Shown piece after piece: positions 19,134 through 23,478 of a stretch of DNA of 32,592 bases. Source of the DNA: an uncultured bacterium (GTDB lineage Bacteria; Verrucomicrobiota; Kiritimatiellia; RFP12; UBA1067). Every line of letters begins with the position of its first letter. Position 1 is the first letter of the stretch. Where the stretch lies: positions 1 through 32,592 of the forward strand of contig CACWJS010000040.1 in assembly GCA_902761275.1 (NCBI GenBank). The letters are read 5' to 3'. Made by a program: the position numbers and the translations under genes. The notes under the pieces are model-generated. The model was not told where the DNA came from. It did no database searches and saw nothing but the letters and a program-made list of their open reading frames with translations.

Positions 19134-21704
19134 CTATCGAACGAAGATGGTGAGACCTTTTGGCGAGGCATCGACGACATCAGGCCCGGCAAGGAAGACA
19201 TCGGCGCCGCGCGCTGCGCGGCCGGTGTCGTAGAGGAACTGATTGGCTACGGTGTCGTAGACGCCAAGCTCGCCGTCCGCAAGGCGGCGGCACGGCACGA
19301 AGCGATGCGTCTGGACTTGCTCGTCGCCTTCTTTCACATCCATATACATGACGCGATAGGCGACGTAGGTCTTGTAATTGTTGTTGTTGCTGAGCCGTCC
19401 GAAGAGTCCAAAAGTCGTGTTGTCCGCGCGGAACGTGCCGATATCGGTCAGCTTGTCGATGTTAGTTTCATTCAGGACAAACCAGCCGCAAGGCGCGTTG
19501 TTTTCAAGCCGCGTCCGAAGCTTCATCAACGCCCAGTTGTCACCCACGACGGTGGAATAGACGAACCCTGGAGAGTACTTGTTCCCGATGCCCCCGTAAA
19601 TCCTGTCCCCCTTGCCCATGTGGAAACGCTCAACAACACTCCCCACGTCGTCGATCATGCCGACCTGCCCCATTGCATCTGGTATCGGCGACTGGAACTT
19701 GATGTCGACGCGCATGTTTCCGTTTGGATGGACAAGCGTGTCGAGCTGCTGCATGCCGCCCGAGGTCGATTCGATATATGCGATGCGCTGATACTCCGGA
19801 GGAAGTGTTTTCTCCTTCGGCACAATCAAGAACTGGACCGCGAACACCGCGCAGTTTGTATAGCTCCCGATTGGAGTAACCGTCACTTTGCCGAGGCCGA
19901 TATCGGTGTTGTCCATCCAGGCGAGGGTATAGTCCGTGTCCTTGACGAGTCTATGCCCGCCTACCTTGACGACGACCTCGGGGCATACCGGCTCGTCGTT
20001 GAGTATCTGCGGTGGAATTTCGTCATAGTCCAGACTGCCCGGCCCGGGCACAAACTCCCCCGTCCCCACATTGGTCAGGAATTCATTCTTCACCGTATCG
20101 TACATGCCGAGCGCGTTGTCGCTTGCGCGCATGCACGGAACGAGCGACCGGTCTGGGCCGGTCTCCCGTCCGTCCTGCCAGATCTCGACCTTGCTGAGAC
20201 GAACGGTCGCGTACTGCTTAAGCGAAGGCGTACTGCTGTTGCGGCCAAAGAGCCAGATTGTGCTGTGCTCGTTAGCTGCACCGGCATACCCCGGTGAGCC
20301 CATCGCCGCGAAGTCTTGGACTCCGTCGCGGTAGACCTTGTTCTCCTCCAGGTTGATCTCATAGTTGTGCCATGTTCCACCATCGGTATTCAAACTGCCG
20401 ATTCCCTCATCCCTGCGGTCACACCACACCCATATCTTGCCGTTGTTCACATTGAAGTGGAAGCGGTCATGCTTGTTGTCGGTGCCGAGTTTGTCGATGG
20501 CGCCAATCTGCCCGCCAGTGGCACCGTTAAACACCTGCATGCGGAAACGCATGCGTGTATAGCGGTCAAACTGGACGCCGGTGTCGATCGCCTGCGTGCC
20601 CGATGACTCCAGATATTGCAGTTGCATGTAGTTGCCGATCGAATCGAGAGTGCGGAAATCGGCAGGAGCGGAAGATGATCCGGCTGGCGTCGCCGCATTG
20701 TTGGTTGCCGTAAACCAGCACGAGTATGGGGTCCCTGTCGCGAGGTTCCCGAGCGTGACCGAGAGGTTTGCCGGAGCGGGGTCTTTCGCGCCAAGCGAAA
20801 CCGTATTCGTTGCAACGCCGTCGGTGTAGGTAAACCACACATTGGCCGATGTCGCCCCCTCGCCCAGCGCGCGCAGTTCGCACGTGACGGTGGCGCCCGT
20901 CGCGGTCAGGTCGGAAACGGATGGGGGAAAGAACGCCGGCATGGAAAAACTTATGACCCCTATCACGGCCCCGTAGGCAAACGTGCCGCTGCCCGAGTTC
21001 GGGAGGAACACATCGCGGGCGGTGTCGTACACGCCCGACTCGGTGCCGTTCTTGAGGCAGGGAACGAAGTTGCAGCAGAGCGTCCCGCCGACGGTTTTCA
21101 CGGTTCCGCCGAAGAACTTCACCTTCGCCTTGTTGCCCCAAAGGAAGGCTGGCGAACCGCCGGACATGTCGTTTATGGCGAAGAGGTATGCGCTTCCGTC
21201 GCAGGTGAAGGTGTCGGAGCAGTTGTCGGTGTCGGATGCAGTGGTGACAACGTTGCTGCTCGAGTCATATCCGGTCACCGAGCGCGTCGCCGCCGAATCG
21301 ACGACGACATAGCGGCGGTCGGCCGAAATGCTGCCCGCGCTAAGCCGGTACGGGGTATGGTTGCTGTTGTTGAAGTCAACAGTGACTGCCGGCGCGCTGT
21401 TCGCGTAATCCATGAAAAAGGAAATGTTCTTCACGTTGTAGGCGGTGCGGCAGCCATAGCATGGCCTTACCCCGCCTAAGCCAGAAGTGTTGCTCGAGGT
21501 TGGAAGCTCGGTCGGCTGAATGTCGAGCGTGACGACATGGTCGCTCCCGTTCGTCCAGAGCGTGTCGATGTACTGGTTGCCGTCGCTCTCGATGTATTCG
21601 ACCTCGGTATATCCGCTCGGCAACGACCCCGCCGCAAACGCGCTTGATGCAGCGAAAGCCGCGAGACACACGATACCACACGCGAGTTTTCTCACCCCGT
21701 TCAT
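19134..21704 (-). CDS. Secreted three-module LamG-like surface protein with Fn3-like and Ig-like inserts
   Basis: ATG 21704 is preceded by AGGAG and opens a signal peptide (MNGVRKLACGIVCLAAFAASSAFAA); the product is 856 residues. Order: LamG-like module 1 (~28-240, LPSGYTEVEYIESDGNQYIDT), Fn3-like (~255-345, ending CWFTATNNAATPAG), LamG-like module 2 (~350-560, YLESSGTQAIDTGVQF, then KVEIWQDG..LVPCMR..GMYDTV), an Ig-like stretch (~565-640, DYTLAWMDNTDIGLGKVTVTPIG), and LamG-like module 3 (~645-835). The C-terminus is SPKGLTIFVR, comparable with the paralogues. Module 2 shares a 97% identical DNA block with the short downstream-oriented neighbour at 21925-22566. Expression is probably shaped by its dyad promoter and G tract. 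Function: likely adhesin or glycan binding; no enzyme motif. Confidence 0.8.
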   Translation of the reverse strand: MNGVRKLACGIVCLAAFAASSAFAAGSLPSGYTEVEYIESDGNQYIDTLWTNGSDHVVTLDIQPTELPTSSNTSGLGGVRPCYGCRTAYNVKNISFFMDYANSAPAVTVDFNNSNHTPYRLSAGSISADRRYVVVDSAATRSVTGYDSSSNVVTTASDTDNCSDTFTCDGSAYLFAINDMSGGSPAFLWGNKAKVKFFGGTVKTVGGTLCCNFVPCLKNGTESGVYDTARDVFLPNSGSGTFAYGAVIGVISFSMPAFFPPSVSDLTATGATVTCELRALGEGATSANVWFTYTDGVATNTVSLGAKDPAPANLSVTLGNLATGTPYSCWFTATNNAATPAGSSSAPADFRTLDSIGNYMQLQYLESSGTQAIDTGVQFDRYTRMRFRMQVFNGATGGQIGAIDKLGTDNKHDRFHFNVNNGKIWVWCDRRDEGIGSLNTDGGTWHNYEINLEENKVYRDGVQDFAAMGSPGYAGAANEHSTIWLFGRNSSTPSLKQYATVRLSKVEIWQDGRETGPDRSLVPCMRASDNALGMYDTVKNEFLTNVGTGEFVPGPGSLDYDEIPPQILNDEPVCPEVVVKVGGHRLVKDTDYTLAWMDNTDIGLGKVTVTPIGSYTNCAVFAVQFLIVPKEKTLPPEYQRIAYIESTSGGMQQLDTLVHPNGNMRVDIKFQSPIPDAMGQVGMIDDVGSVVERFHMGKGDRIYGGIGNKYSPGFVYSTVVGDNWALMKLRTRLENNAPCGWFVLNETNIDKLTDIGTFRADNTTFGLFGRLSNNNNYKTYVAYRVMYMDVKEGDEQVQTHRFVPCRRLADGELGVYDTVANQFLYDTGRAARGADVFLAGPDVVDASPKGLTIFVR
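20443..20559. repeat. 117-bp block duplicated at 22295-22411
   Basis: The two blocks differ at only four positions and lie in the same orientation inside two LamG-like genes. They encode the segment MQV-x-NGATGGQIGAIDKLGTD and the following HDRFHFNVNN. Identity this high against weaker similarity outside the block suggests recent duplication or gene conversion. Confidence 0.85.
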
Positions 21705-21765
21705 ATTGCTTCTCCTGTTGAATTTTGAGTATGCAAATGAAGAGGCGAGAAAACTATTAAGTTTA

Positions 21766-21774
21766 CCCCCCCCC
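21766..21774. repeat. Nine-base C/G homopolymer in the LamG gene leader
   Basis: Nine Cs in a row on the plus strand (nine Gs in the transcript) lie between the promoter (-10 at 21811-21816) and ATG 21704. Such tracts slip during replication. With nine Gs the tract is read in frame with the gene if translation began at TTG 21779. Confidence 0.85.
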
Positions 21775-21810
21775 TGCAAAAATACTATTACTTATGCAAA
21801 GCATGAGGAA

Positions 21811-21856
21811 ATTATACCACACACTCAGAAATCTGCCAATCCCTACTGAGGTAGCA
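21811..21856 (-). promoter_or_regulatory. Promoter of the 856-residue LamG gene with upstream dyad
   Basis: On the minus strand TTGGCA (21834-21839) and TATAAT (21811-21816, preceded by TGG) are 17 bases apart. One base upstream of the -35 the plus strand reads CCCTAC-TGAG-GTAG (21841-21854), matching the dyad at 19089-19104. The predicted leader is about 100 bases and includes the G9 tract. Confidence 0.75.
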
Positions 21857-21861
21857 ACCAT

Positions 21862-21935
21862 AGTCAGATATTTTACCTTTTCACAGTCATATTTTACGGC
21901 GTTTGACAGTCAGACTTTAGAATATTAGACAGTCA
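21862..21935. repeat. 23-bp-period direct repeats (AGTCA iterons)
   Basis: AGTCA occurs at 21862, 21885, 21908 and 21931, exactly 23 bases apart each time. The three full units start AGTCA and end (C/G)AC (the second and third in GAC), with AT-rich middles that share TTTTAC or TTTA. The last copy falls at the truncation point of the LamG-like gene at 21925-22566, and the first lies just upstream of the dyad promoter. Confidence 0.75.
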
Positions 21936-22566
21936 CGGTATCATACATACCGAGCACGTTGTCGCTTAGGCGCATACAGGGAAAAAGCCGTCGGTTCGGA
22001 CTGTCCAGTTGTCCATCCTGCCAGATTTCAACGTTGCCGAGACGAACGGTAGCATACGATATGCCTGCAGAACCCAAATTGCTATTGCGTCCAAAAAGCC
22101 AGATGGTGCTGTGTTCATTCACTGTGCCGACATAGGCATTCCCCGAGGTGGTAATCTGCGCGATATCTTGCACCCCGTCGCGATAGACCCTGTCCTTCGC
22201 CAGGTTGATGTCATAGTCGTGCCATGTTCCGCCCTCGCTGCTTGCGCTCGGGCATCCTCCGTCCTGGCGGTCGCACCACACCCGCATAAGACCGTTGTTC
22301 ACATTGAAGTGGAAGCGGTCATGCTTGCCGTCGGTGCCGAGTTTGTCGATGGCGCCAATCTGCCCGCCAGTGGCACCGTTAACCACCTGCATGCGGAAAC
22401 TCATGCGTGTATTGCCGCCAAACTTTACACCGGTGTCGATCGCCTGAGTTCCCGACGACTCCAGGTATTGCAGCACCACGTAGTTGTTGATCGAATCGGC
22501 GCGGGCGGTCACGACGACAGTTGTCGCAAGCGCTGCAGTGATAATGGCCAAATGTTTTACTCTCAT
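21925..22566 (-). CDS. Short secreted single-module LamG-like protein, truncated duplicate
   Basis: The 213-residue product starts at ATG 22566 with AAGGAG seven bases upstream and has a signal peptide (MRVKHLAIITAALATTVVVTARA). It then consists of one LamG-like module (VLQYLESSGTQAIDTGVKF ... NVEIWQDG ... LFPCMRLSDNVLGMYDTV), closely matching module 2 of the next gene (19134-21704). Similarity stops abruptly after GMYDTV; two residues later the frame ends within a 23-bp-period repeat. The usual end of the module and the C-terminal hydrophobic tail are missing. It may be a decaying partial duplicate or a functional secreted single module. No clear promoter is visible directly upstream. Confidence 0.7.
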   Translation of the reverse strand: MRVKHLAIITAALATTVVVTARADSINNYVVLQYLESSGTQAIDTGVKFGGNTRMSFRMQVVNGATGGQIGAIDKLGTDGKHDRFHFNVNNGLMRVWCDRQDGGCPSASSEGGTWHDYDINLAKDRVYRDGVQDIAQITTSGNAYVGTVNEHSTIWLFGRNSNLGSAGISYATVRLGNVEIWQDGQLDSPNRRLFPCMRLSDNVLGMYDTVTV

Positions 22567-22671: not shown

Positions 22672-23478
22672 TCAACGTTTCGCTATCCCCAAAGATTCAC
22701 TGTCAATTGCACGAAATGGCTGGTACATGCAGAGCCGGCCGCCGTCGATGACATGGTTCGTGCCTGTCACGAACGAGGCGTTGTCGCTGCACATGAAGAG
22801 AATGACGTCGACGAGTTCGTGCGTCTCGCCGGCGCGTCCGAGCGCGGTGGGCATTCCTCTCATCGCGGCTCGTGTGAGGACGGGGCCAGGCGTCACGCAA
22901 AGGGCGCGGACGTTGTGCGGCCCGCCCGCAATCGCAAGCCCCTTCACAAAGTTGAAAAGCCCAGACTTGGCAGTGCCGTACATCGTACCTACACCGTCGC
23001 CCTCGAAGCCAGTCACGGAACCGAGGCAGCAGATGACGCCAGATTTCTTTGCCACCATCTGCGGCATCATGGCGCGAGCGAAGTAGACTGCGCCTTTGAG
23101 ATTCACGTCAAGCCCCCAGTCGATGACATCGACCGGCTGTTCATAGAACGGAACGTTCGACTTGCAGCACCGCGCCTCGTTGCCGCCGGCGCATGTGACG
23201 AGAATGTCACAGCCACCAAGAGACGCCGCGATTTTCGCCGCGGCCTCGGCGTGAGCGAACTCGCGCACATCGCCAGCGCAGGCAACAACGCTTTCTATGC
23301 TCTTTTCAACCTTTCCACCTCTCAACTTTTCAACCTCTTGACGAAGCGTTGCTTCGTCAAGATCGCACATCACGACCTTCGCGCCGAGCCGCGCAAACTC
23401 CTGCGCGGCCATGAGCCCCATGCCGCTCGCCGCGCCCGTGACAACGGCGACCTTTCCGCTAAAGTCAATTTCCTTCAA
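22672..23478 (-). CDS. SDR-family NAD(P)-dependent oxidoreductase
   Basis: The 268-residue cytoplasmic short-chain dehydrogenase has the cofactor loop TGAASGMG (residues 15-22), the acidic residue after beta-2 (CDLD), a CAGG in place of NNAG, and the catalytic Ser..Tyr-x-x-x-Lys (LGSVTGF, then YGTAK). PG-x-V-x-T and IDGG near the C-terminus fit the classical subfamily. TTG 23478 is the only start that keeps the Rossmann fold; GGAGG lies eight bases upstream. It overlaps the lyase gene by 14 bases, so translation is probably coupled. Residues ~49-60 (KLRGGKVEKSIES) are an insertion encoded by octamer repeats next to an 11-bp palindrome. Likely oxidises or reduces a sugar or sugar acid of the neighbouring pathway; substrate unknown. 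Confidence 0.9.
   Translation of the reverse strand: MKEIDFSGKVAVVTGAASGMGLMAAQEFARLGAKVVMCDLDEATLRQEVEKLRGGKVEKSIESVVACAGDVREFAHAEAAAKIAASLGGCDILVTCAGGNEARCCKSNVPFYEQPVDVIDWGLDVNLKGAVYFARAMMPQMVAKKSGVICCLGSVTGFEGDGVGTMYGTAKSGLFNFVKGLAIAGGPHNVRALCVTPGPVLTRAAMRGMPTALGRAGETHELVDVILFMCSDNASFVTGTNHVIDGGRLCMYQPFRAIDSESLGIAKR
23307..23361. repeat. Octamer array plus 11-bp palindrome inside the SDR gene
   Basis: Four 8-bp units (CAACCTTT, CCACCTCT, CAACTTTT, CAACCTCT; 23307-23338) run directly into a perfect inverted repeat CTTGACGAAGC-GTT-GCTTCGTCAAG (23337-23361). Both lie within the coding frame. Confidence 0.8.

Follow-up and report, generated by a model that had tools for sequence, protein, structure and literature searches.

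We analysed a row of AGTCA boxes in a contig of an uncultured Kiritimatiellia bacterium (GenBank assembly GCA_902761275.1, contig CACWJS010000040.1, positions 1 to 32,592; this whole stretch of 32,592 nucleotides is the window). The boxes form an array of 23-bp units at the break point of a gene for a LamG-like protein. Arrays of the same class run up to the promoters of ATPase genes of one subfamily, named here 'GPKWCGKT', in Bacteria, Archaea and plasmids. This link between array and ATPase is our main result, and no earlier report of it was found in open papers, preprints lying outside the search. The copy in the window is probably a relic of such a promoter, left at a recombination scar.

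A 23-bp array inside the window

The four boxes start at 21862, 21885, 21908 and 21931, and the exact 23-bp step claimed in an earlier note on this DNA is confirmed by the coordinates and by shuffling: the three-box pattern occurred in none of 100 dinucleotide shuffles of the window. When 250-bp windows along the contig were compared, agreement among three units at period 23 reached 12 of 23 columns at the array and at most 8 elsewhere, and 12 columns were reached in 0 of 5,000 Markov shuffles of the array segment. The stretch is A+T-rich, with 34% GC against 56–60% in the flanking genes. It holds at least three degenerate units, diverged from each other and recurring exactly every 23 bp, with promoter-like elements beyond them:

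21858–21935, minus strand: array of degenerate 23-bp units ending with a partial fourth box; its best unit is 21/23 identical to the array before the ATPase of genome G237
21935–21913, minus strand: unit TGACTGTCTAATATTCTAAAGTC
21912–21890, minus strand: unit TGACTGTCAAACGCCGTAAAATA
21889–21867, minus strand: unit TGACTGTGAAAAGGTAAAATATC
21866–21858, minus strand: partial fourth box TGACTATGG
21852–21857, minus strand: TTGCTA, a −35-like hexamer 9 nt from the start of the last box, matching in register the −35 hexamer of the G237 ATPase promoter
21811–21839, minus strand: promoter-like TTGGCA-N17-TATAAT of the downstream LamG-like gene, a consensus match only

In the window, no −10 element follows the TTGCTA hexamer at 17 or 18 nt; the promoter of the LamG-like gene sits 18 bp beyond it. 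The earlier note had called 21811–21856 a dyad promoter. The promoter-like part stands, as a σ70-like TTGGCA-N17-TATAAT on the minus strand (21839–21811), and the dyad does not: no inverted repeat of at least 10 bp has both arms inside this stretch.

Arrays of 23 bp at ATPase promoters

Among 288 genomes of the class, triple CAGTCA arrays occur only in the window, on contig C53 of the same genome, in G279 and in G237. The C53 array, the one other such array in its genome, stands directly before the start of a 422-residue ATPase with AAA_14 and DUF4143 domains. G279 carries this same array, and in G237, which represents another genus of the same family, the array precedes an ATPase of the same subfamily; all three arrays thus adjoin ATPase genes. 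The window unit TGACTGTCAAACGCCGTAAAATA shares 21 of 23 bases with the G237 unit TGACTGTGAAACGCCGTAAAGTA and 19 of 23 with a unit of L139; the best unrelated matches among approximately 349,000 positions reach 16–17 of 23. At the G237 promoter, TGACTGCTA directly abuts the −35 hexamer TTGCGT. The genome of the window encodes two subfamily ATPases, on contigs C53 and C6, and both of their arrays have units other than those of the window.

ATPase genes of the subfamily were gathered by protein similarity, and the 250 bp upstream of each was scanned for periods of 12–40 bp. The best period was 23 bp in 42 of 42 genes. In the first set it was best in 30 of 30, 27 of them at p < 0.01; three of these thirty were the loci that had prompted the survey. 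The second set gave 23 bp for all 12 further genes, each at p < 0.01, with identity down to 28%; these came from plasmids of Collinsella, Bacteroides ovatus, B. uniformis, Prosthecochloris, Actinomyces and Lentilactobacillus, from one phage-labelled contig, and from Methanosphaera and Firmicutes paralogues. The same period was seen at eight loci that the CAGTCA pattern or the gene neighbourhood had brought up (Firmicutes, Thermoplasmata, Methanosphaera and G182). As controls, 1 of 190 regions upstream of other long open reading frames (ORFs) and 0 of 128 in-gene windows were significant at 23 bp. Since 27 of the 190 control regions were significant at one period or another, the p values are approximate, and the weight lies on the repeated choice of 23. 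The arrays look universal in this subfamily. Among viral sequences, searches of IMG/VR with peptide patterns gave no carriers, and INPHARED gave four unannotated phage-labelled contigs.

Upstream of the subfamily genes, three to seven units repeat at exact 23-bp intervals as far as the −35 hexamer, which is followed by N17–18 and TATAAT; the typical form is TTGAC(G/A/T)-N18-TATAAT. Within one array, and across the arrays of one protein clade, the units resemble each other; from clade to clade they differ (TGACCGAATG, GCCAAATTACC, GGTAATGAAAAGTCC and others), whereas spacing and promoter position stay constant despite the change of unit. An apparent opposite orientation of the arrays at different ATPases was an artefact of reading AGTCA against TGACT; gene-oriented units align as C[AT]GT[CG]AAA..CCG[AT]AAAA. 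The iteron reading of the earlier note is supported for the array class, which sits at the −35 of AAA_14 and DUF4143 ATPase promoters, and finds no support as control of the LamG-like gene.

The arrays do not extend to all DUF4143 genes, an idea ruled out by 64 such genes across the phylum, some with a period of 23 bp, others with 22, 32 or 33 bp and many with none. Other DUF4143 subfamilies have upstream arrays of 22 bp (L193), 32 bp (L211, L249 and L219) and 33 bp (L215 and L217), periods near two or three helical turns.

Orphan arrays occur elsewhere. Those of the TGACTGAATG type lie at L067:4001–4072 and L093:941–1015, in Christensenella and Lachnospiraceae draft genomes that gave no subfamily ATPase at E ≤ 1e-40. 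Two other repeats were seen. In the Prevotella metagenome-assembled genome MB2.90 (L040, L055, L056, L060, L065, L078, L084 and L085), a 23-bp repeat whose CAGTCA/TGACTG halves are inverted recurs many times across separate contigs; this appears to be a dispersed family with no relation to the ATPase arrays. A dispersed repeat, AGTCATAGGTATGACTAGGGGTG, is common to same-genus genomes (L261, L262, L263 and L268) and is apparently unrelated to the ATPases as well.

A scar in the LamG-like gene

The genes around the window array, the extra segment and the junction are as follows:

19134–21704, minus strand: gene for a LamG-like protein with a signal peptide; 856 codons, counted from the ATG at 21704
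21925–22566, minus strand: 213-codon ORF with a signal peptide and the first LamG-like domain, the 5′ part of the ancestral gene, cut at YDTV
22672–23478, minus strand: short-chain dehydrogenase, the neighbour whose synteny fixes the position of the empty site in the relatives
approximately 20090–21933, no strand: extra segment of about 1.84 kb relative to G182 and G210
21931–21941, no strand: junction, where the last box overlaps CGTGA (21937–21933, minus strand)

'LamG-like' is the name used in the earlier note; the product of the larger gene has no Pfam match. Its 881-codon ORF begins at a TTG upstream of the ATG at 21704. In two genomes of the same genus, G182 (contig C62) and G210 (contig C40), the dehydrogenase gene is followed directly by a single uninterrupted LamG-like gene of about 535 residues, and the dehydrogenase side is syntenic with the window over 3.3 kb at 77%. 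As a whole, the relatives' gene matches residues 379–878 of the 881-codon frame, and its first domain corresponds to the 213-codon ORF. The gene is therefore truncated in the window, as the earlier note had supposed. After the YDTV codons, the extra DNA of about 1.84 kb brings in the array, the promoter and a new N-terminal module, together with a duplicate of the first domain.

The similarity between the 213-codon ORF and its paralogue, which the same note had placed at the last box, ends inside that box: the YDTV codons are shared through GTGA, after which the sequences diverge at CTGTC. The pentamer CGTGA is common to the LamG codons of the window and to arrays of the G237 type. Because the gene is uninterrupted in both relatives and the array stands exactly at the junction, the locus is best read as an insertion or deletion scar, one of the two readings that had been proposed, and as one that carries an orphan array. 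We call the array an orphan rather than a working member of its class because no ATPase fragment or match was found in the window; no AAA_14 and DUF4143 gene lies directly downstream. A unique repeat without conservation had been named as grounds against its significance, and this applies in part: the copy at this locus is not conserved in the relatives, whereas the array class is conserved elsewhere.

A candidate defence ATPase and its putative operator

The array-bearing ATPases match the PADLOC model PDLC04790 (PDC-S01) at E values of 1e-59 to 1e-62. A recent survey reports PDC-S01, in which an ATPase is joined to a PD-(D/E)XK superfamily member, as the fourth most common defence across prokaryotes and describes it as having no known function (PMC12988326). 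It is a defence candidate from genomic context only, and validation by experiment is pending for most such candidates (PMC12988326). A structure model built from seven sequences (mean pLDDT, the predicted local distance difference test, 74.6; AAA part poor) places a predicted winged helix at about residues 213–292, between the AAA and PD-(D/E)XK parts, and a nuclease-like part at the C terminus; residues E321, D351, E365 and K367 are invariant. The modelled winged helix (residues 213–269) resembles Zur/Fur DNA-binding domains (Zur, Z 8.4, 1.5 Å over 55 residues) and the modelled C-terminal part (residues 272–422) resembles Card1, Can2 and McrC (Z 7–8), all modest Z values that indicate fold only. 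Foldseek gave weak matches of the model to 2qby and 2v1u, and the PDB holds no sequence relatives of the ATPase.

We propose, with a probability of roughly two in three, that the boxes in the window are a promoter array of the PDC-S01 'GPKWCGKT' type, orphaned at a recombination scar with its ATPase absent, and that the class consists of iterons bound by the protein whose gene they precede. Through its predicted winged helix, the ATPase would occupy neighbouring units of its own array, each stretch of 23 bp (about two helical turns) taking one protomer, and would thereby repress or gate its own promoter. We infer this binding and autoregulation from the position of the arrays, the gene-specific units and the winged helix of the model. 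In the window, recombination at the CGTGA microhomology would have joined an array and its −35-like hexamer to the inside of the LamG-like gene, the array forming the edge of the extra DNA. We take the array to be a probable relic, because its ATPase gene is missing, the promoter register is broken, the units have diverged and related LamG promoters have no arrays.

Several points weigh against this proposal. Covariation of units with windows of the protein, used to look for the part that reads the DNA, gave ρ = 0.32 overall and no clear segment, the top window lying near Walker B; since the units do not clearly covary with the winged helix, the binder could be another protein. Confidence in the AAA part of the model is low. 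The former ATPase has left no coding remnant, and its past presence is deduced from the array and the −35 register. Finally, the draft genome is 88.8% complete in 256 contigs, and a cognate ATPase could lie outside the assembly.

More tentatively, and with the odds somewhat against it, these proteins may form a self-addressing AAA+/winged-helix/nuclease family, in which each gene would have a private array at its −35, the protein would assemble at a 23-bp pitch, and the specificities of array and protein would change together. Orphan arrays would then be cis landmarks by which other genes attract, or used to attract, proteins of this family. The near-invariant promoter array offers a DNA ligand ready for use with PDC-S01 proteins, a way into the study of their regulation, and a marker for finding PDC-S01 genes or their remains. 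It would also explain the window, with the array marking a recombination scar and not a new transposon.

Alternative explanations

The array could instead be a working operator of the LamG-like gene, bound by an ATPase encoded elsewhere or by another regulator, and controlling the promoter at 21811–21839. It does lie upstream of a good promoter, in the orientation seen at ATPase genes, and the genome has the subfamily ATPases on C53 and C6. The two arrays at those genes have other units, however, the window units have diverged from each other, and the distance from the array to the LamG −35 departs from the fixed spacing at ATPase promoters. The closest relative of the N-terminal module has no array, and none was found at other promoters with the same leader type. 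Control of the LamG-like gene by the array, the second reading raised in the earlier note, is possible but unsupported, and we regard it as unlikely. A common origin of the leader and the array was rejected, since relatives of the leader lack the array. So was a donor role for the ATPase on G182:C15, which stands beside a LamG-type leader: the downstream gene shares only the leader and signal peptide, and the unit of the ATPase array differs.

Less probable still is a role of the array in a mobile element, as one of its ends or as its attachment site, whether through TnsB-type transposase repeats or because the ATPase cassette is itself mobile. Tn7/TnsB-type transposon ends have repeats of 20–23 bp, a size like that of the units here. 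The array stands at an insertion junction, and an ATPase and its array form a discrete 1.56-kb block that is 93% identical between two species of one genus in unrelated flanks (L004:4435–5993 and L016:4796–6354). Yet about 118 bp of the block's homology extends past the array, which is therefore not its edge; the arrays end at the −35 box of promoters; and the junction in the window shows a 5-bp microhomology. Nor was a second array found in the window, or a transposase among the ten window proteins scanned, and the transposon-end reading of the earlier note is not supported. Separately, a 63-bp stretch at the edge of the L004/L016 block recurs at L004:2567–2629 beside another ATPase.

Many genomic 23-bp tandem repeats with CAGTCA are ordinary minisatellites. 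That the window array is one of these, or a product of chance, and has no relation to the ATPase arrays is very improbable given the strict spacing of degenerate units, the 21/23 match to the G237 array and the G237-like register to a −35-like hexamer.

Comparison with known systems

Regularly spaced direct repeats at the promoter of the presumed binder are a feature of iteron operator-centromeres and initiator iterons, such as those of plasmid Rep/ParR type and the origin boxes of Orc1/Cdc6. The order of AAA and winged-helix parts in the ATPase recalls Orc1/Cdc6, to which the weak Foldseek matches 2qby and 2v1u relate; the ATPase differs from these systems in its PD-(D/E)XK-like part, and no role in replication or partition is indicated. 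Among phage-defence islands, RptR is a separate small repressor bound to promoter direct repeats, three repeats with a 6-bp palindrome (PMC12255303). The arrays described here likewise lie as direct repeats at promoters of candidate phage-defence genes, but each is tied to a single ATPase gene, has 23-bp spacing and changes its unit between clades. PDC-S01 comprises the same single-gene AAA_14 and DUF4143 ATPases as the array-bearing genes, whereas the window has the array without such a gene; the account of PDC-S01 in PMC12988326 makes no mention of repeats or promoters.

Minor features of the LamG-like genes

The two LamG-like copies share a near-identical tract, at 22280–22400 and near 20440–20560 of the window, and are 78% identical in the remainder, which suggests recent gene conversion. 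In the leader between the promoter and the ATG of the LamG-type gene, a poly-C tract of 9 C occupies 21766–21774; the corresponding tract is longer in the relatives L171, L172 and L187. It is a candidate site of slippage-based phase variation in LamG-type genes.
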